Shown: positions 7,555-59,925 of the stretch, piece by piece | Position numbering within the stretch: the first letter of the stretch is position 1 | How the letters are laid out: every line of letters starts with the position of its first letter | NCBI GenBank assembly: GCA_028583405.1 | Contig: CM053252.1 | Span: forward strand, 32,555,562-32,619,561 | Length of the DNA: 64,000 bases | From: Pogonophryne albipinna | Lineage: Eukaryota > Chordata > Actinopteri > Perciformes > Artedidraconidae | Direction: 5' to 3' | The notes under the pieces: model-generated | Seen by the model: the letters and a program-made list of their open reading frames with translations, nothing else | What the model was told of the DNA's origin: nothing | Database searches by the model: none | Made by a program: the position numbers and the translations under genes

Positions 7555-8272
7555 ATGGAGCCAGAGGGAGCTGGAGTGAGTAAAAGAAGAAGAATAGCAA
7601 ATGATATTAATTGGGAAAAAATGCTTTATTTGTCAACATGACTATGGGAAAAACAGGCAAGATAAACTACTAAGAAAAGCATCTGAGGATGGACTGAAAT
7701 GCATTAAACTTCGAGCAAGTGAACGAGTAAAATACAAAGATGTACAATATGTTGATACTCTAGATCGGATTCAGGAGTTCCTTGACACAAAAGCCGAAGA
7801 GGTCCAGTGGCACAAGACATGCTATGCTGATTTTACCCATGCCGTTGTCATTGATCGTCTTAAGCAGCGCTTTGAAAACACTAAGGACACACTGGAACCT
7901 GCAAGCCGCCCTCGTTCCACTAGAAGTTCAATTGCTCCAGTCATTTGGGAAAAATGCATTTTTTGTCAGGAGGATAAGTCTCAGGAAAACCTCCACACTA
8001 TTCAAGTCTTACGCACATCGGAAAATATTCTTCAGCTGGCTCAGCTAGACACAGTATTGAGATGCAGGCTTGCAGGAGTCAATGACTTGATTGCCGCAGA
8101 GGGCAAATATCATCTTATCTGCTACAGGGCATTCTCCAGGAAGTACCAAAGCACTACGCCAAGAGCAGACCCATATGCCATTTGCTTAGACAATGTGGCA
8201 GATGAGCTGAGAACTGGCCTTGCCAGGGGTGAAATATACTCTTTGAAAACTGTTTGGGAAAGATACTGTTAA
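7555..8272 (+). pseudogene. Transposase relic, N-terminal zinc-binding modules
   Basis: From the ATG at 7555 a basic leader (SKRRR) runs into an A-run at 7615-7621. One extra base there shifts the frame; the continuing frame begins around 7601. Two related cysteine/histidine modules follow. The first has KCFICQ and a WHKTCYADF motif, the second WEKCIFCQED and a HLICYRAF motif, i.e. paired CxxC and HxxxC elements likely to bind zinc. The frame ends at TAA 8270-8272, a second stop (TAG 8306-8308) follows in phase, and the reading resumes in the same frame at 8342. The protein would be the DNA-binding N-terminus of the transposase. It is not functional as read. Confidence 0.65.
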
Positions 8273-8311
8273 ATTATTGAAGACTTTAACTTGGAACCAG
8301 GAACATAGAAC

Positions 8312-9952
8312 AGTCATCATTTCAAGACTAAGCTTGACAAATTGCTTGAAGGGAAAGCATTATTTGTGCAATCATTGAGCCCAACGAAGCCCTTGATGAT
8401 ATTTCCTGAAATGACAGCTGAGGCTGCTCTCCAAAACCTAAAGAAAACAATGGATGATGAACAGGAATCCCAAGATGACACTAAAGGAATGAGAATGGCT
8501 AGTTGTGACGATGAGATACTGAGTTGGCTGTATTGGGTGTCATTAAAGATCAAGGCAGAAATCAGGGAGTCCCCAAGACATGATGTAATGGGAGGGATTG
8601 ATCAGCACCATGCAGAAGAAGTGGTGCCTGAGAGTTTGTACCTGCTGTTACGACTTCTATGCACTGATGATGACGACCAAGAAAATATGGATAAACAAAC
8701 CGTGAACACAAAACTACTCAGCATTGCTCAAGACATTGTGTTCCTGGCATCTGGTGGACAAAAACCAACACCAAAGCACATTGGAATTGGAGTTACAGTA
8801 CACCAAGCTACACGCTCAAAGGGCTTAGTGCAGTTACTTCATGCTGCTGGGCACAGTATAAGCTACGAATCAGTGCTGAGAACAGATACTGCTATAGCAA
8901 ACGAGGCTGTGAAACAATACTTTGACAATGGTAGAGTATTTATTCCACAAAACTTTGTCAATGCAAAGCTCCCTGGATACATCATGTATGCAAATGACAA
9001 CATCGACATTAATGAAGAAACCCTTGATGGGAAAGGAACCTTTCATGCCTCCCAGACTGCAGCTTTCAGACTAAATGAACCTCAAGAACAAATCCCCAAA
9101 GTGAAGCTGTTATCAGGTAGAGCAAAGTCACTCTCAATTCCACCAGGGATGTTTGAGCTCAAGGATGCTAAAATGGAATCACAGAAGCCCCCTCCAAAAT
9201 TCCATGGGCCAGTTACACCAGAAATGTATGATGCAGGCACGCAACTAACTAAGCAATCAAAGAACCAGGATCTTGCCTGGATTCTGTGCAGACAACAGAA
9301 CTCGGAAGTTGTTCTATCTTGGAGTGGATTCAACCAGCTTATGTCAAAATCAGATCACCAAAAAACAGTAGCTGGAATGATGCCTATCATAAATTCTCCA
9401 GCACATGACTATGACACAATCTGGACGGTGTTACAAAACTGCCACAAAATGACTACACAGCTGGGCCAAAGGTACACAGTCATAACCTTTGATGAGCAGC
9501 TCTACTGCAAAGCAAAGATGCTTCAGTGGCATCACCAAAAAGAGTGCGAGAATATTGTTATTGTCCTGGGTGGCTTTCATGTGCAAATGAACTTTTCAAA
9601 GGTCATTGGCCAGCATCTTGCTGATTCTGGACTGAGAGACATCCTTGAGGAAAGTGGTGTCTTTGGAAAGAACACAGCTGAAAACATCATGAAGGGAAAG
9701 GGATGGAACCGTGTAGCCCGTGCACACAAGCTAACCTTTGAAGCACTTTGGAGAATATTGTGGCCAAGCTTTCTGCAATGGATGGAAGATAATGACTGCA
9801 CAATCGACAACAGTTGCTTAGAGTTGGCAGATGCACTGTCTGGGCACATAGGAAGTGGAGAAATGGAAGCAGCTTCAGCATGCTATGAGGAACTTGTGCT
9901 GAAAGTTGGGGAGATTCACGATCTCCTTGTACAGTTTGACAAGGCCAAATGA
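8312..9952 (+). pseudogene. Transposase relic, central region
   Basis: A 530-residue open frame in phase with the preceding zinc modules. It starts without a convincing ATG because it is an internal part of the larger protein. I recognise no named domain, but the composition is that of a soluble, globular, helix-rich protein. The frame closes at a TGA (9950-9952); the homologous reading continues immediately afterwards in another frame (FWRQYMDLV... from about 9975), so a small indel lies near 9950. Its length and position between the zinc modules and the XPG-like part fit the very large single transposase of Academ-like elements. Confidence 0.6.
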
Positions 9953-9959
9953 AGACAAG

Positions 9960-10761
9960 CCAACCTTTACCTTCTGGAGACAGTACATGGACCTTGTGTC
10001 TATTCTCCTTGCGTTCACCCGGGCACTGAGATGTGGTGATTAGAACATGTACATGTCAGCCTTCAAGAGCATGATGCCTTGGTTTTCTGCGTATGATCAC
10101 ACCCATTACACAAGATGGGGTGCTGTGTTCATAGCAGACATGGAACAGCTGGCACAGACAGCACCAGAGGTCTACAAGGGCTTCCTAGATGGTGATTTTG
10201 TAGCCAAGGAGACCAAACACAGCTTCAACGAGGTGCCTTTCGACCTTCGCCTTGAACACATCAATAAAACGGGAAAGGTTGCTGGAGGATTGATAGGCAT
10301 CACTAGAAATGATCCAGAAAGAAACCGTTGGTCCATCACCTACAATGAACGTGCATCCTTGGCAGAGGATAACAGATCCCTGTTTGGACTGACACATGAT
10401 GACGACGATGATGAGGAGACGCACAAAGACTGCCTTCAATCAAGAATCAAGAGGGATAATCACGATGTCATTCAACTTGTTGATCAGTTCCAGAGATACA
10501 ACGTCTTCCAACAAGAGCATATGTATGATTTAGTGTCCCTGACAACTGGTGATGTTGCCTCAGAAGAGATACTGAATGACCTTACACATGCTGCAGAGTC
10601 TGGCAAAAAAACTATCACTGAGTTGGTGAAAAAACGACTGGGCACAACGAACACAGACTTCCACGCCAGTCTCACCAAGAGAAAACCGAAAACATTCTCA
10701 AGCCGATACAGCACAGATACCAAGCTTGAACAACTCAGATCCAAGTGTGTGAAGCCTGACA
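9960..10761 (+). pseudogene. Transposase relic, pre-nuclease region, cut by a LINE
   Basis: The frame runs from about 9975 through a stop TAG (10041-10043, apparently a mutated Trp codon) to the LINE junction near 10761. Patches such as YTRWGAVFIADMEQL, VPFDLRLEHINK and GLIGITRNDPERNRW look like the conserved core seen in large transposon proteins of fish and cnidarians; this is remembered pattern, not a search. The coding sequence breaks at KPDK and resumes after the LINE at DRDIFRR. Confidence 0.55.
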
Positions 10762-11811
10762 AGGCAAGGCAAGGCAAGTTTATTTATATAGCACTTTTCA
10801 ACACAAGGCAATTCAAAGTGCTTTACAAAAAAAATGAAAGACATTAAGAAAATGAAAGACATTAAGAAAATGGCATTTAAAATCAGTCATTAAAAGAAAA
10901 GCTAATAAAATAAACATTAAAAGAAAAAAATACATGGATAAAAGTTACAGTGATAAAAGTTACAGTGCAGTCTAAGATATGAATAGTTCAATTAAAAGCA
11001 GCGACAAAAAGAAAAGTTTTCAGCCTGGATTTAAAAGTAGTCAGAGTTGCAGCGGACCTGCAGGTTTCTGGGAGTTTGTTCCAGATATTTGGAGCATAAT
11101 AACTGAACGTTGCTTTTCCATGTTTAGTTCTGACTCTGGGGACAGAAAGTTGACCAGTCCCTGAAGACCTGAGAGATCTGGATGGTTCATAATTTAGCAG
11201 GAGGTCAGAAATGTATTTTGGGCCTAAACCATTCAGTGCTTTATAAACCAGCAGCAGTATTTTGAAATCTATTCTTTGACACACAGGAAGCCAGTGTAAA
11301 GACTTCAGAACAGGAGTGATGTGATCCACTTTCTTAGTGTTAGTGAGGACTCGAGCAGCAGCATTCTGAATCAGCTGCAGCTTTCTAATAGATTTTTTAG
11401 TGAGACCTGTGAAGACACCATTGCAGTAGTCGAGTCTACTGAAGATAAAAGCATCGACAAGTTTTTCCAAATCCTGCTGTGACATTAGTCTTTTAATCCT
11501 AGATATGTTCTTTAGGTGATAATAGGCTGATTTAGTAACTGTTTTAATGTGACTGTTGAAACTCAGATCAGAGTCCATGACTACACCTAGATTTCTGGCT
11601 TTATCTGTTGTTTTGAACATTGCAGACTGAAGCTCAGTGCTAACTTTTATACGCTCTGCCTTGGCTCCAAAAACCATTACCTCAGTTTTATCTTTGTTTA
11701 ATTGGAGAAAGTTCTGACACATCCAGTCATTGATTTGTTCAATGCACTTACTCAGTGTTTGAATTGGAGCATAGTCTCCTGGTGAAATTGTTACGTACAT
11801 TTGTGTGTCAT
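10762..11811 (-). mobile_element. L2-like LINE, 5'-truncated
   Basis: The minus-strand 3' end reads AAAGTGCTATATAAATAAAC followed by repeats of TTGCC, a tail typical of fish L2-group LINEs. It carries the C-terminal end of a reverse transcriptase and interrupts the Academ-like coding frame. A short near-duplication (GACAAG left, GACAGG right) may be the target site but is not perfect. 5' truncation is usual for LINE insertions. Confidence 0.8.
10988..11811 (-). pseudogene. LINE reverse transcriptase, C-terminal fragment
   Basis: The frame starts abruptly at a DDTQMYV motif, equivalent to the catalytic YADD box of LINE reverse transcriptases with the first two residues lost at the truncation point. 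It continues through the thumb and C-terminal region characteristic of L2/CR1 (NLGVVMDSDLSF, SRLDYCNGVFTGL, LQLIQNAAARVLT, LHWLPVCQRIDFK, WNKLPETCRSA). About 275 residues remain. The fingers, palm and endonuclease are missing, so it cannot be active. Confidence 0.85.
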
Positions 11812-12103
11812 CCGACAGGGATATTTTTCGCCGCATCATTGTATCCATGGAGAGTGGCAGAGAGGTCAACATGGATGAGCTTCTCCAAAAAGAACTGTGT
11901 GCAGTCCCCCTGTCACTTGCCACAACAGATTCAGTGCTCAGGCCTACAAACAAAGCTGACTTAGCCACCATACTACAAGCTGGTGCAAAGGAACAGAGCT
12001 CAGTCCATCTGTTATGAGAACATGCACCATCATTGATGGAATGGCCTTAGTAAGAGCCATGGGAAAACCTCACAATGCATAAACCTTCGGGGAATATGCA
12101 GAT
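11812..12103 (+). pseudogene. Transposase relic, between LINE and nuclease
   Basis: Coding resumes after the LINE with DRDIFRRIIVSMESGR, runs to about 12010, then needs a frame change to continue as RTCTIIDGMALVRAMGKP. A stop TAA sits at 12080-12082, followed by TFGEYADVF leading directly into the nuclease segment. These are the fourth and fifth inactivating changes in the reading. Confidence 0.55.
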
Positions 12104-12847
12104 GTGTTCACACAGAGAGTTGCATCTAATCTACATGGGAACGTCACCAGAGTGGATATAGTGTTTGATCGGTACCAACAAAACTCCATCAAGAGTGGAA
12201 CAAGAACAAAACGCAGCACTACTCAGCGAAAGGTTCGCACAATTGTGAGTAGAGATGTAAAGCTACCTGCTAACTGGAATAGCTTCATTGAAATGGATGA
12301 AAACAAAGCCAACCTTACCCATTTCCTATCAACTGAGCTTGAGAATCATGTGCAGCTTTATGATGAGGAAATTGTTATCAGTGGAGGGTTTGAGGATCCT
12401 GAAAAAGTCACGTCAGCAGCTGGGATTGATGTATCTCCCCTACAAGCTACACATGAAGAAGCAGATACACGCATACTACTACATGCAGCTGATGCAACAA
12501 TGAAAGGGTTTCAGAGGCTCATCATTCAGTGCCGAGACACAGATGTGTTGCTGCTACTACTTGTATTTGCAAACCAACTAAGCCAAGAAGTTTGGATGAA
12601 AGCAGGAACAGCTAAGAAACCACGCTACATCAAAGTCCATCAAATCACACTACCAAATGAGATGCTCGATGGTCTGTTGGCATTTCATGCCATCACTGGA
12701 TGTGATACTACGAGCCAGTTCACCAGAATTGGAAAAAGGACTGCATGGAAAGTGTTCCAGCAGTACCCGCATCTTCTCCACAACTTTGGTGAGGATGAAG
12801 TACCAAGTACCACTTCCCTATCCTTGGCAGAACAGTTTTGTATGTAA
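12104..12847 (+). pseudogene. Transposase relic, XPG-like nuclease domain
   Basis: The signatures follow the order of XPG/FEN-type nucleases. RVDIVFDRYQQNSIKSGTR resembles the N-region (vFDG...K...R). HEEADTRILLHA followed by CRDTDVLLLL resembles the I-region acidic cluster (EAEA...D.D). ITGCDTTSQFTRIGKRTAW matches the GCDY...GIG..TA helix-hairpin-helix motif. The candidate metal-binding acids are present in the sequence. The domain would cut DNA at element ends or flaps if intact, which is inference from the family. The frame is lost at a T-run (12836-12839), where one extra T diverts it to the stop at 12845-12847. Confidence 0.65.
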
Positions 12848-13415
12848 GCTCTATGACCTTAAGTCAACCAGCAACTCGATACAAGAAGTTCGCTGCGCTC
12901 TCTTTCGAAAACTTAAAGCCAATGTTGATACATTACCACCAACAGAAGATGCATTGTCAATGCACCTCAAGAGGGCCCACTACCAAACGAAGGTTTGGAA
13001 ACAGTCACTAGTGACACATCCACAACTGCCCTCACCAATCAATTGTGGTTGGCAGATGATGAATGGTATGCTGGTCCCCATGCTTCTTACCAAGGAACCT
13101 GTACAATCCACATGCGTACAGCTGACAGTGTGTGGATGCAAGGAAAGTGGAAGTCAGTGCAGTACCAGACAGTGTCTCTGTCGCAGAAGAGGACTGTATT
13201 GCAGTGGGGCGTGTGGATGTGCTCGTGCAGCGTGGTGCATGAACTCCAATGACATTCAAGAGACTAACGGTGAAGAAACCGATCTTGATCTGGATGTTGT
13301 GGTGCGGCCGCCAGAAAAAAGCACATCAACAACGAGATCTTCAGTGTGCGATGCTCAGCCCTCCACATCAGCACGTGTACTGAGGGCGCAGGGGCGTACA
13401 GATCGCCGTCTGTAA
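12840..13415 (+). pseudogene. Transposase relic, C-terminal CXC cysteine cluster
   Basis: After the frame change at 12836-12839 the reading continues FVCKLYDLKS to a natural-looking stop at 13413-13415. Near the end is a dense cysteine array with spacing C-x5-C-x-C-x6-C-x4-C-x-C-x6-C-x3-C-x-C-x5-C (about 13112-13241). It resembles the CXC (tesmin/TSO1-like) zinc-binding fold that binds DNA. A Cys-rich tail of this kind is part of what I recall for Academ transposases. An acidic stretch and PPEKS tail follow. Confidence 0.6.
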
Positions 13416-54175: not shown

Positions 54176-55872
54176 GTAAGACAACCGCTGTCTCAGCTCA
54201 CAAGTGTGTATCCTGAATGTTAAAGAATGTCCCTAACTCTGTGCTGTTCTCAGTATACATGTATGGAGGAAAGGGGATATACAACCTTTCAGAAAATAAC
54301 AATTAAATCAGGATCTCTGAATAGGTATGTTTCCAGTCAGCATTAAATGACTAGCAAACTCTGTCTTAAGTGTGATAAATACTCACATTTTCTTTGTTAA
54401 ATTATGGTTGAATGGTCATTAAATAAGGATCCCAGTGAGCTGCTTAATGGCAGCACAAGGATTTTCACTTTTACAAAAATGCAGCAACTCATCACCCCAT
54501 TAATTATGAATCTAGGCTAAAAAACGATTTTGTTCAGATGTTAACCCTCAATTTTAATGTTAACATTTTTAGTTCAGTGGTTGGAGCTGGTGGCCTGTCT
54601 TTGACAGTTATTTTGCAAATCTAGGATCATTTTTATTTAGACACAATCTCCTATTAATGTCAAAAGCTCTGCCAAATTTGCAGTGATCCATCATCTTTTC
54701 AAAAAACGAAATAAAGGAATAACACATTTCCACCCATTCCGAGCTGCAGAAGATTGCATTTGTTCCATTTAAAAAGTTATTCAAAGGTGAGTTTAAGTGA
54801 CACAACCTTGAAAATACAATCGCGGACATATTTGATTAATTTGATGTCTGTTTCAATGTTGATCATATTCACTGTAAGTCTGTTTCTGGGAAGGGAAGTA
54901 AATGGTTTTATTGTTTGAGTTGCTCAACAGGCCCAGGGGCCTCATTTATAACGCCGTGCGTAGGATTCACGTGGGAAGGTTGCTTACGTAGTAGAAATCC
55001 AAAAAATAGGTACAGACATTTTCAGACATTTTCCGATTCACCAAACATTGCATACCGGCGAGGAAAGTGCGTACAGCACTTCCTACGCCGGTTTCCCTTT
55101 ATAAATCACAATCGACTCGAAATGCGGTGCAGCTTTTGCGGGCTTCACGTAACGCCCATATTTGCCTATAAATAGTCAAAGAAACGCCCATTCATTCATT
55201 TTCACTGACTTTATGAAGAAGATAGCAGGAAATGACGACAGAACAGCTAAAAAAGACATCTCACACCGTGTCAGATTTTGGTTATTTTGGGGAGGTGGAG
55301 ACAAATCATATTGTTGGTGGATGCAGTTTGAACCAGAGTAGCAGCATGGAGGTCGGATCGTCACCAAAATAAATAAATAAGTGGTTCGAAAAAGGTTCAT
55401 GACAAAAAATCCACTGCACTCTGTGCGTCTCAACCAACCAATCAACCTATAGAAATGCAAAACGGCGTCAGTTTAGACGTAATTCTGTCCTTCTGCTTAC
55501 CGCATCATTTATGAGAAAACATTTCATAACATTAACACAACATATTCGAGGTGGTTTTAAATAACATATCCGTATTTATTTATTTCTCCAAGTTATGTTT
55601 TTCTGTGCACTGAGGAGTCGCAAACAGGCGTTTGTTTAATCATTTTAAGATCAGCTTTAATCAATGTTTGAAAATGAATTCTTCATATGATAAATGAGAG
55701 GTAACATTTTATTTATGGTATTATTTCCACATATTTCTCTCCATTCTACCTTCTGCCAACGGTGTCGCAGTTTCTCGTCTCTCCAGTTTTTGTGCTTAGC
55801 ATGGGTTACAGTTTGCGTGGAGGACCGCACATTTTCCCGTCAAGTTAGTATTTTATAAATCGCAAACATTGG

Positions 55873-56266
55873 TGTGATGCCCCTGTGGGTTCATCAGTAG
55901 AGAGGAGGTGGCTGTGCTGTGGTGATTGGTGATTGCAGTAACTCAGGGCACCTGGGTCTGGTGTCCTGCAGCTATTTAACGCCTCTCTGCTCCTCTCTGT
56001 TCTCTCTATGCTTCTCCCTGCAGGCACACCGGTTTTGTTGAGTATGATAGGAGTTTATTCAGTTGCTTTACTTTGTGCACTTCAACACTCTCACACACAT
56101 ACATGTCCATACAATCCTCACCCTGCATTTACATTACTGATACCACTGACTTCCACACCTCATACTTTACTGGTTTTGACTTGTTTGTCTTAAATAAACA
56201 CCATTACCTACCCGTTGATATGTTGTGTCTCCTTTTTGTTGTGGCCTTTTGAGCCAGGTCGCAACA
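55873..56266 (+). repeat. 5' LTR
   Basis: Begins TGTGATGCCCC and ends GGTCGCAACA (TG...CA). GCTATTTAACG (about 55970) may serve as TATA box and TTAAATAAACA (about 56192) as polyadenylation signal. It differs from the 3' LTR at 56008 (A here, C at 59104). Confidence 0.95.
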
Positions 56267-56268
56267 AA

Positions 56269-56281
56269 TGGGGGCTCGTCC
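56269..56281 (+). promoter_or_regulatory. Primer-binding site, tRNA-Pro type
   Basis: TGGGGGCTCGTCC starts two bases after the 5' LTR and matches the 13 terminal positions expected for a tRNA-Pro primer. The match then ends (AACGGG follows). Confidence 0.7.
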
Positions 56282-56836
56282 AACGGGTTATTTGTTTAAA
56301 AAGTTTGTGTAGTGCTCAGAGCACATGGTGTCATTGAGCAGCTGATTCATTGTTGTGGTCCAGCTGTGTGCTGGCTTGTCGCTGCTATTTGGGGGACACA
56401 TCATGTCTTTTGGGTTTTAGGAGGCTGTAGTGTTTGACATGTCGTCAGGTTTTGTGTGCCAATCAGAAGGTAAGATGTTGCTGTTTGTTACGCTTTTGTA
56501 AAAGAGATTTTCCCCGCTAGGCTTAAGTGGCGTTTCCCCTTGGGTTGCGTCTGTTTTTTTGTTTGTTTTCATAGTGTTGTGGCGACGTGGTTAGTGTCAG
56601 CTGTTTTCGGACAGCTGTCTCGGGGGCACGTCCGCGTGAGTTCTTGGTGTTACATGCGTGCAGGTTGCTCCATAACTCCGCCGGGTTCCAGTGCGTAATT
56701 ACCCACCGCAAGCCACATGAAGACTAGGTGAGATTAGGAAGATTTTGTTTAGGCAGTTAGGGGGAAATTCTCTGTTGGGTTAATCTTATGCCCATGCGTG
56801 TTGGCAGGTTAATACTTTGCTTTCTGATTGGTTATT

Positions 56837-58996
56837 ATGACTTCTTTGTCAGCGTTTGTGGATGCGCCCTCAGTGTCTTTCTTAGATGATTGCCAGAAGG
56901 CGCAGTTGGTCGAAATAGCAGAGCACTATAACATTGCTGTTGTGGGGAGCAAGCGGAAACATGACATTAAAACTGTCATTGTGTCATCTTTGTTTGAGCA
57001 GGGGGTGTTGCAGAAGAGTGAGTCTGGTGCAGCAGGGTTCGTGCCGGTAGTGGTTCAGACAGCTGGTTTAACGTTCGAGCAGCAAAAGGAGCTTTTGGCC
57101 ATGCAGTTTGATCAGGAGAGATTGCAGTTGGAGTTGAGGTTGGAGCAGGAGAAGTTGCAGTTGGAGATAAGGGGTCAGCAGCAGGAGGTAGAGAAGCGTT
57201 TAGAGGTGGAGAAGGTGCTGGAGGTGGAAAAGATGAAATGTGAGGTGGAACATGCTAGATTACGGCTGATGGGAGAGGGCAAGTTTTCTCCAGGGGAGGA
57301 TGGTGGTGATAGGTCGGCATCAGGCAGTGGCGATATCATTTCTTACTTGCGATTAGTGCCAAAGTTCAATGAGCGTGACCCGGACATTTTTTTCACTCTA
57401 TTTGAACGCATAGCAGAGGCAAGAAACTGGTCAGATTCGGACAGAGTGCTGTTACTTCAGTGTGTACTCACTGGGCGAGCACAGGAAGCCTATTCAGCTG
57501 TTTGTGGCGAAAATGCTTTGGACTATGATAGAGTAAAATCAGCGGTGTTGAAGTCTTACGAACTGGTTCCTGAAGCGTATCGTCAAAGGTTCAGAAGTTG
57601 GGTCAAGGGAGATAAACAGACACATGTGGAGTTTATCCGTGATTTAACTTCTCATTTTCAGCGGTGGTGCGCGGCAGCAAAGGTTGCAAGTTTTGACGGT
57701 CTTTGTGAGCTCATTGTCTTGGAACAATTTAAAGACATTCTCCCTCAGCGTGTGGCCACTTATGTGAATGAACAGAAGCCTTCCACCGCGTTTAGAGCTG
57801 CTGAATTAGCGGACGATTTTGTGTTGACACATAAGGGCAGTTTTACTGAGAAGTATTCTAGGGGTGATTGGAAACGTGGAGAAGACAATGGCTATGCCCG
57901 CGGTGGTGCAAAGTTTTCACCAGGCTCCTCCCGTAGATTTGTAGGTCCAGGGCGATCCGAGGGCGCCAGAGTTGGCCAATGTCATTATTGCCGAGAAGAG
58001 GGTCATTGGAAGGAGCGGTGTCTGTTGCTGGAACCTGAGGGGAAGCCTCGTTCTTCATCACATGCTCCAGCCATGTGTTGTTCTGCCGTTTTGGTTAAAA
58101 AGCCGCAGGGTGTAAGATCGGGCATGGTGCCTGTTAAGAAGCTGGTTTGTGCCGACTTGGAGGTGGGTTCTGTTTTTGAGCCGTTCATAACGGAAGCCGT
58201 TGTATCAATGGTCGGTAGTGACAAGTATGTTCCGATTAAGGTGTTGCGTGACACAGCAGCTAGATACTCATTTATTGTTGAGTCCGTGTTGCCTTTTTCG
58301 TCAGAGACAGAAACAGGGGATTTTGTGCTGATGAGGGACATGGAGATGGGCTTGATTCCTGTGCAACGTCATACAGTAGTGCTGGATTGTGAGCTGGTAC
58401 GGGGAGTTGTGTCTATCGGCGTGCGTCCCGCGTTGCCACTTGATGGGGTACAGATGATTTTGGGCAACGATCTAGCTGGTAGTGCTGTGTGGGCGGGTGT
58501 GCCACCGCCTGTGGTGATTTCCAGGCCGTTGGCATCTGTAGAGCCAGATGAGAGCGGTTTGCAATTTCCAAGTGTGTCTCCAGTTTATACTGTTACGCGT
58601 GCGCAGAGCCGTAGGATGTCGACTGGCCTGCCTGTTTCGGAGTCTGGAAAATGTGGTCCAGCACGGTCCTTGGACTTTGAGATCGAGACAAAGAAGAAGG
58701 AGAAGAAAGAGAGGAAACCCTGCAAAGCGAACAAGAGGAGGCCGAAGAAGAGGAGGCCGAAGAAGAGGAGGCCGAAGGAGGTCGGCGCGCCCAAGAGGCC
58801 GATGAGCGCCTACATGCTGTGGCTCAACGCCAGCCAACCCAAGGAGGAGTGGGACAGTGGCGGAGGAGGAGCGTCCTCCAGTCCTAAGAAGGAAATTAAA
58901 AAAGCTGGAATTAAGAAGGATATTGGGTTGTCGTGGATCCCTTTGGGGCCCCGTCTTAAGGGGGGGGCTGTGATGCCCCTGTGGGTTCATCAGTAG
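56837..58996 (+). CDS. Gag-protease-like polyprotein fused to SSRP1 HMG-box fragment
   Basis: 719 residues from ATG 56837. An upstream in-frame TTG at 56828 is not a likely start. Order: a SAP-like helical N-terminus (about 15-58); Glu/Gln-rich coiled coil (80-145); Gag core of the SCAN-related Gmr1 type (about 165-335, with LLLQCVLTGRAQEAYSAV and YELVPEAYRQRFRSW); CCHC zinc knuckle CHYCREEGHWKERC (382-395) for RNA binding; and an aspartic-protease-like region with LRDTAARYSFI (about 470) and ILGNDLAG (541-548). The protease DTG motif reads DTA, so activity is doubtful. After VTRAQSRR, where reverse transcriptase should follow, residues 617-685 are Lys/Arg-rich repeats, then APKRPMSAYMLWLNAS and KEEWDSGGGGASSSPKKE, which I recognise as SSRP1. 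It ends inside the 3' LTR (MPLWVHQ). Confidence 0.88.
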   Translation: MTSLSAFVDAPSVSFLDDCQKAQLVEIAEHYNIAVVGSKRKHDIKTVIVSSLFEQGVLQKSESGAAGFVPVVVQTAGLTFEQQKELLAMQFDQERLQLELRLEQEKLQLEIRGQQQEVEKRLEVEKVLEVEKMKCEVEHARLRLMGEGKFSPGEDGGDRSASGSGDIISYLRLVPKFNERDPDIFFTLFERIAEARNWSDSDRVLLLQCVLTGRAQEAYSAVCGENALDYDRVKSAVLKSYELVPEAYRQRFRSWVKGDKQTHVEFIRDLTSHFQRWCAAAKVASFDGLCELIVLEQFKDILPQRVATYVNEQKPSTAFRAAELADDFVLTHKGSFTEKYSRGDWKRGEDNGYARGGAKFSPGSSRRFVGPGRSEGARVGQCHYCREEGHWKERCLLLEPEGKPRSSSHAPAMCCSAVLVKKPQGVRSGMVPVKKLVCADLEVGSVFEPFITEAVVSMVGSDKYVPIKVLRDTAARYSFIVESVLPFSSETETGDFVLMRDMEMGLIPVQRHTVVLDCELVRGVVSIGVRPALPLDGVQMILGNDLAGSAVWAGVPPPVVISRPLASVEPDESGLQFPSVSPVYTVTRAQSRRMSTGLPVSESGKCGPARSLDFEIETKKKEKKERKPCKANKRRPKKRRPKKRRPKEVGAPKRPMSAYMLWLNASQPKEEWDSGGGGASSSPKKEIKKAGIKKDIGLSWIPLGPRLKGGAVMPLWVHQ
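58676..58905 (+). other. ssrp1-like fragment: Captured SSRP1 segment
   Basis: This part is richer in G and C than the gag and encodes basic repeats (KKRRPKKRRPK) and the start of an HMG box, KRPMSAYMLWLNAS, typical of SSRP1, the FACT histone-chaperone subunit. KEEWD from the end of the box follows directly, with about forty central residues missing, then GGGGASSSPKKE, like the Ser/Gly-rich SSRP1 tail. The order without introns suggests an mRNA origin, with an internal deletion that removes helix 2 and most of helix 3. A functional HMG fold is therefore unlikely. Confidence 0.75.
58957..58968 (+). promoter_or_regulatory. Polypurine tract
   Basis: TAAGGGGGGGGC directly precedes the 3' LTR, where plus-strand DNA synthesis would be primed. 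Confidence 0.8.
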
Positions 58997-59362
58997 AGAG
59001 GAGGTGGCTGTGCTGTGGTGATTGGTGATTGCAGTAACTCAGGGCACCTGGGTCTGGTGTCCTGCAGCTATTTAACGCCTCTCTGCTCCTCTCTGTTCTC
59101 TCTCTGCTTCTCCCTGCAGGCACACCGGTTTTGTTGAGTATGATAGGAGTTTATTCAGTTGCTTTACTTTGTGCACTTCAACACTCTCACACACATACAT
59201 GTCCATACAATCCTCACCCTGCATTTACATTACTGATACCACTGACTTCCACACCTCATACTTTACTGGTTTTGACTTGTTTGTCTTAAATAAACACCAT
59301 TACCTACCCGTTGATATGTTGTGTCTCCTTTTTGTTGTGGCCTTTTGAGCCAGGTCGCAACA
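58969..59362 (+). repeat. 3' LTR
   Basis: 394 bp, identical to the 5' LTR except for one base. The gag-SSRP1 frame stops 28 bases inside it, and its ATTGG flank completes the duplication. Confidence 0.95.
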
Positions 59363-59925
59363 ATTGGGTAGAAACTGGCGTACACCATTTTTTGAGGGTA
59401 TATCCCTTTATAAATGAGGCCCCAGACCTTAAAGCTGACGTGGTTCATGTTCACTTCTTCAAATTCTTTCCGTCTGTGAGTGAGCTCCTACAGTGGCCCT
59501 AGTAATTATTCTCAAGGAAAATTGACGGATCAGCAAATGATCATTGATTGGAATTGACCTTTAATCTGAATTTAAATGTATTTGACATCTCCTTTTCAAA
59601 GCGAGTCTATCCACTTTAAACCAGTCAGAAGAGCATAGAAGGAACAAATAAAATTATAATAAAACAAAACAGCTGTTTCTTTTTGGACACGTTCATGTAG
59701 CAAAGCATTTCTCATAGTTACAAGCTGATTGAGAAAATATGATGTCACGTCCTTGTTATGTTTTTGCTTGACCAACCATGAAGAGACCCTTCAAAGTGAT
59801 CTGAAAAGAAGATGTGCTTTTTACAAGACATGATTCAGCCCTCCAGTTCATTTCCTGTAGGAGCAGCAGCAGCTGCACAGAAGTAAAGTAGAAACAAACT
59901 CTCTTCGCTTCGGCAGCAGAGGAGA

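Follow-up and report, generated by a model that had tools for sequence, protein, structure and literature searches.

Acute transforming retroviruses carry a piece of host mRNA behind Gag, where it replaces pol, and are moved by helpers. The maize element Bs1 has no reverse transcriptase. It is described as the classic plant long terminal repeat (LTR) element that incorporates parts of host genes into a chimeric frame (PMC13317346). LTR elements of animals are described as changing template to a cellular mRNA where the two share a short word, with examples from zebrafish, chicken, and mosquito (Tan and co-workers, cited in PMC5408686). Among vertebrate elements, the Gmr1-like Ty3/Gypsy group is characterized by a SCAN-type Gag, a single gag-pol frame, and LTRs of about 340–520 bp (PMC4131045, PMC3424704, PMC11117352); the SCAN domain derives from Gmr1-like Gag (PMC3424704), and a single frame for gag-pol is tabulated as normal in such elements (PMC11117352, table). 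Here, we describe an LTR retrotransposon from the Antarctic fish Pogonophryne albipinna in which pieces of the host gene SSRP1 follow Gag and a protease-like region. The element lies in a stretch of 64,000 nucleotides (assembly GCA_028583405.1, contig CM053252.1, positions 32,555,562 to 32,619,561), hereafter the window. It very probably belongs to a non-autonomous, trans-mobilized family of Gag–host fusions that arose when a Gmr1-type element switched template onto spliced SSRP1a mRNA and back.

The fused frame and its host pieces

The element occupies 55873–59362, about 3.5 kb with ATTGG at either end, and its two LTRs differ by one mismatch over 394 bp. With LTRs, primer site, polypurine tract, and target duplication but no pol, it has the make-up of a non-autonomous LTR retrotransposon (Table 1). 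A first-pass annotation of this DNA had recognized this frame of signals around a 719-residue reading, and had read Gag, a CCHC knuckle, and a protease-like region running on into SSRP1; both descriptions were borne out. The frame begins with the ATG at 56837, is open to 58993, and stops at 58994–58996, with its final eight codons inside the 3′ LTR. When 2000 sequences of matching composition were generated by a first-order Markov model, none stayed open for 719 codons, while the tail portion alone was open in 45 of 2000. Elements of this type ordinarily encode gag and pol in one frame, so the single frame is itself inherited. Beyond the SCAN domain, Pfam searches returned no match for the knuckle of the window copy, whose relatives give weak zf-CCHC matches, and none for the protease-like region. 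The protease motif at 58250–58258 reads DTA, where most relatives read DTG; DTA occurs in seven of the 36 proteins with a pattern-readable protease motif, including the unfused relatives P0042 and P0046.

The donor can be read directly in the same genome. SSRP1a, a gene of many exons on contig 3 (about 26.389–26.399 Mb), matches the element in order over 38 nt (92%), 32 nt (97%), 77 nt (100%), 28 nt (93%), and 39 nt (85%), the last two sharing ten element bases and flanking an intron. The identical block, 77 of 77 bases, lies at 58759–58835. Three SSRP1a introns, which follow KPRKE, follow KEDKE, and interrupt the final SSSPKK codon (splice sites placed by eye), are all absent from the element, and the source was therefore spliced SSRP1 mRNA; four SSRP1 protein models independently show the exon boundary between KE and EWD. 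The element also has more RRPKK units than SSRP1a itself.

The window copy retains nine aligned residues at which the SSRP1a proteins of icefish (Pseudochaenichthys) and Eleginops disagree. It agrees with icefish at seven of them, with Eleginops at none, and with neither at two. Cryonotothenioids form a grouping apart from Eleginops, and the donor was therefore probably a cryonotothenioid, with capture after the Eleginops split. The SSRP1a gene of this genome contains glycine and alanine runs (L065, 2735–2920); an alanine run at this site is present in Pseudochaenichthys SSRP1a and in neither Eleginops nor the element.

The first-pass annotation had also assigned the tail an HMG box of SSRP1. 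Its SSRP1 origin and the start of the box stand, but the box is not intact: the Pfam HMG_box match covers the first 18 of 69 positions only (E 0.012, under the curated cut-off), and the window copy retains the start of the box plus a small remnant from its end. The best solved-structure match of the tail is SSRP1 (E 4.5e-6), and a second tail piece aligns to SSRP1 387–397, an alignment that is insignificant taken alone. The last residues of the frame come from the parental 3′ untranslated region and the 3′ LTR. Structure prediction for the tail gave a mean predicted local distance difference test score of 58 and a single 8-residue helix. A folded HMG domain was rejected on the partial match, below cut-off, and the disordered model; the tail, with 29 lysines or arginines to nine aspartates or glutamates in 87 residues, is instead predicted to be a basic disordered stretch.

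Table 1. Features of the fusion element, in window coordinates
Feature	Position	Strand	Remark
5′ target-site duplication ATTGG	55868–55872	.	by eye
5′ LTR, 394 bp	55873–56266	+	
PBS-like primer binding site TGGGGGCTCGTCC	56269–56281	+	presumably resembles the tRNA-Pro type
Single frame, 719 codons and stop: Gag, protease-like region, SSRP1 tail	56837–58996	+	
SCAN domain of Gag, residues 245–333, PF02023	57569–57835	+	Pfam, E 7.5e-19
CCHC zinc knuckle CHYCREEGHWKERC	57980–58021	+	by eye
Protease-like region	58175–58480	+	limits by eye
SSRP1 piece 1, RSLDFEIETK, SSRP1a residues 388–397	58659–58693	+	
SSRP1 piece 2, basic stretch and HMG box start	58694–58835	+	spans a spliced exon junction
15-bp tandem repeat encoding RRPKK units	58728–58780	+	
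SSRP1 pieces 3 and 4, KEEWD and SGGGGASSSPKKEIKKAGIKK	58841–58918	+	span two further spliced exon junctions
Parental stretch resumed: 3′ untranslated region right after pol stop, to polypurine tract	58918–58968	+	
Polypurine tract, G-rich	about 58958–58968	+	directly before 3′ LTR
3′ LTR, 394 bp	58969–59362	+	
3′ target-site duplication ATTGG	59363–59367	.	by eye

Copies, autonomous relatives, and other fishes

A search of the genome (1.07 Gb in 861 contigs) with a 311-base query yielded 319 candidates, and all 40 that were scored, among them the window copy, match it along its full length at 96–100%. Two full LTRs were found in 32 of the 40; 28 of these carry exact 5-bp target duplications, in 27 different words, and four do not. 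LTR pairs show no mismatch in 16 copies, one in ten, two in four, and five in two; 15 pairs are identical, since one zero-mismatch pair has ten gap columns. Of the 40, 28 retain a frame of 715 codons or longer that reads through the tail. The near-identity of LTRs and of copies points to recent activity of the family. One copy, L015, on contig 11, precedes the window copy by about 126.5 kb and shares its flanks and target duplication, with 99.95% identity over 4201 bp. It may be a segmental duplication or an uncollapsed haplotype of the window locus, and the 40 scored places therefore represent at most 39 independent insertions. Five more divergent copies were fetched by their 3′ ends (L057–L061), and the tail is open in L057 and L061. 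Measured against longer copies, of which L057 is one, the window copy shows two in-frame losses: another 24 bases following the junction J1, and a stretch that follows KEEWD.

The same genome holds relatives that have not exchanged pol for SSRP1. With P0042 as query (63 of 2668 candidates scored), 97 matches were obtained. Of these, eight fall within open frames of 1557–1622 codons and continue beyond the fusion junction, whereas in ten known fusion copies the match ends at query residue 590–594. These long-frame relatives are candidate trans partners. The longest frame by far in this search, of 3946 codons, contains a gag relative on contig 188 (51167–52972). The first-pass annotation had expected reverse transcriptase at this place, as in Gypsy elements generally, which is wrong for this lineage because two relatives with both domains, P0055 and P0074, are ordered SCAN, integrase core, RVT_1. 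Parents read integrase where the fusion reads SSRP1, and an ordinary gag tail was rejected on that basis. All five parent 3′ pieces that were fetched match window 58918–58968, rejoining downstream of the pol stop. Of nine parent-type loci, eight show an LTR match in two blocks (79–86% and 92–97%), and the ninth, L052, a match of only 14 bases.

Fusions also occur in other notothenioids. A protein search with the tail returned 40 matches, 36 with SSRP1 domains and four Gag fusions: P0002 from Pogonophryne albipinna, P0003 and P0004 from Gymnodraco acuticeps, and P0019. The whole protein recovered the same four among the 120 matches listed of 460, and a word scan of the 157 proteins gathered found no fusion beyond them. 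With the last 240 residues as query, 22 matches comprised two fusions, three SSRP1 proteins, and 17 others; both fusions are from Champsocephalus esox (P0162, P0169). P0003, P0004, and P0162 retain more SSRP1 than the window copy, P0019 is without the HMG part, and the tail of P0169 is partly in another frame, like those of L058–L060. In Dissostichus eleginoides (P0174), the left junction site continues unfused. A search of viral contigs gave no relative.

Two observations concern the rest of the window. Several long frames at 7601–13415, mostly on the + strand and without Pfam match, are perhaps one degraded mobile element, and a frame at 27–560 consists mainly of TH repeats from a long dinucleotide microsatellite.

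Origin of the fusion and fate of the tail

A capture during reverse transcription accounts well for these features. RNA of a Gmr1-type Ty3/Gypsy element and spliced SSRP1a mRNA would have been packaged together in a particle, and copying would have switched template onto the SSRP1a mRNA and then back. A short SSRP1 piece would thereby have replaced integrase, reverse transcriptase, and RNase H while carrying on the Gag–protease frame. The product would have kept its LTRs, primer site, polypurine tract, and own Gag as a non-autonomous family, borrowing enzymes from autonomous relatives in the same genome. The family has spread recently, as near-identical LTRs and copies show, and its predicted product is a Gag–protease protein with a basic, disordered SSRP1 tail. 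mRNA capture, as the first-pass annotation had proposed, is supported because three donor introns are lost, the 77-base block is identical, and two junctions show short shared words. At J1, both joined SSRP1 places read ACAAAG, six bases, and at the right junction, J3, GGA is common to SSRP1 and parent just 3′ of the pol stop; J2 contains a five-base filler, and the left junction, J5, has at most about three shared bases, the words at J1 and J3 being candidate microhomology and the sharing at J5 weak. Exon skipping was considered as the origin of J1 and rejected, as its left break sits within an exon.

Several points weigh against this account. Given J2 and J5, clear microhomology is not present at every join. 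The fused frame is broken in 12 of 40 copies, and in three of the five further copies (L058, L059, L060) the tail is spread over more than one frame. The supply of enzymes in trans is something we infer, and the fusion transcript, its protein, and its movement are predictions from DNA alone. Constraint on Gag, set out below, may come partly from exchange with autonomous copies.

Other routes to the same structure fare less well. Spliced host pieces would equally be expected from hybrid RNAs, had an element in or beside SSRP1a been read through in the style of acute transforming retroviruses, with a second switch restoring its 3′ end. That two-step transduction is improbable: the left junction falls within an SSRP1a exon, where one splice would have given an exon start, and two switches onto free mRNA make the simpler account. 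It is next to inconceivable that the fusion is an assembly artefact or chance resemblance, even though lysine-rich stretches are of low complexity and L015 may be an assembly duplicate, since the family occupies forty genomic places with 28 exact target duplications in 27 different words, and fusions are found in three named species. An assembly join, specifically, was rejected because the junction recurs at no fewer than 40 places and in Pogonophryne, Gymnodraco, and Champsocephalus; on neither this count nor that of an ordinary gag tail did the original interpretation fail.

Whether the tail matters to the element is a separate question. Selection was assessed from the unique differences of 39 copies relative to the window copy, excluding codons with gaps or three changes. 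Gag showed 117 nonsynonymous (seven stops included) and 75 synonymous changes, 0.53 of neutral (p 2.9e-5), the protease-like region 23 and 16 (0.54 of neutral, p 0.07), and the tail nine and three (0.88 of neutral, p 0.74), these p values being rough because the copies are related. The pattern indicates that Gag is under purifying selection. In the tail, none was detectable among 12 variants in 63 codons (repeat array excluded), which are too few variants. The window copy differs from the Pogonophryne fusion P0002 at 7 of 87 tail positions and 5 of 368 in Gag plus protease (p 0.0026), and from the Gymnodraco fusion P0004 at 7 of 57 and 45 of 516 (p 0.34).

Most probably the tail is a passenger that the element tolerates, though it may add some unspecific binding to RNA or DNA. 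One could argue instead for a basic part, binding chromatin or nucleic acid, that aided the spread of the family: the frame stays open through the tail in most copies, the basic 15-bp repeat has expanded, positive charge predominates, and 77 bases remain identical to SSRP1a. We consider such an adaptive role unlikely, as the tail's substitutions run close to neutral, its divergence exceeds that of Gag plus protease against the Pogonophryne copy, though not against the Gymnodraco copy, most of the HMG box body is missing and the box is modelled as disordered, and three of five further copies carry the tail in multiple frames. A bolder version, in which the tail tethers Gag particles or pre-integration complexes to chromatin or nucleic acid and drove the family's success in the Antarctic notothenioid radiation, is quite doubtful. 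A part in nuclear retention or integration targeting, as suggested in the first-pass annotation for the predicted fusion protein, would likewise be hypothetical.

Comparison with known systems

Searches on SSRP1, Gmr1, notothenioids, and host-gene capture in fish, vertebrates, and LTR elements found no title or abstract opening reporting SSRP1 capture among open-licence papers, mostly top-ranked matches, and the main text of a notothenioid genome preprint (PMC13131655) has no words beginning SSRP1, Gypsy, or HMG. Within the literature searched, a vertebrate Gag–host fusion turned recent many-copy family seems new. The fish family presents, in many copies, a vertebrate LTR retrotransposon that captured the mRNA of a host chromatin factor, retained it as a Gag fusion, and afterwards multiplied. 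One genome contains the donor gene, the parents, and copies with varying amounts of the host piece, so that the sequence of capture, internal deletion, and amplification is directly legible. The family is also a natural experiment on whether a host tail attached to Gag alters element behavior.

Close relatives by structure are the Gmr1-like Ty3/Gypsy elements, which the fusion resembles in its SCAN-type Gag (PF02023), one frame, and LTR size, with integrase before reverse transcriptase in two relatives (P0074 and P0055), the element itself being without pol. It departs from them in length, ~3.5 kb as opposed to about 6.1–6.5 kb, and in having SSRP1 in place of integrase, reverse transcriptase, and RNase H. 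The first-pass comparison with Bs1 is a fair one: both are LTR elements whose chimeric frame includes parts of host genes, and in the fish element host exons are joined without introns. Bs1, however, is a plant element with pieces of three host genes, while the fish family has one gene and numerous recent copies that are almost identical. Retroposition mediated by LTR elements in animals shares the template switch to a cellular mRNA and, putatively, its siting at short shared words, but yields gene retrocopies, whereas the fish chimera became an element family that spreads, its Gag joined to a host piece. Acute transforming retroviruses provide a further parallel in arrangement, with a host mRNA piece after Gag in the place of pol and movement by a helper; in contrast to them, the fish element is a germline retrotransposon with no known growth effect.
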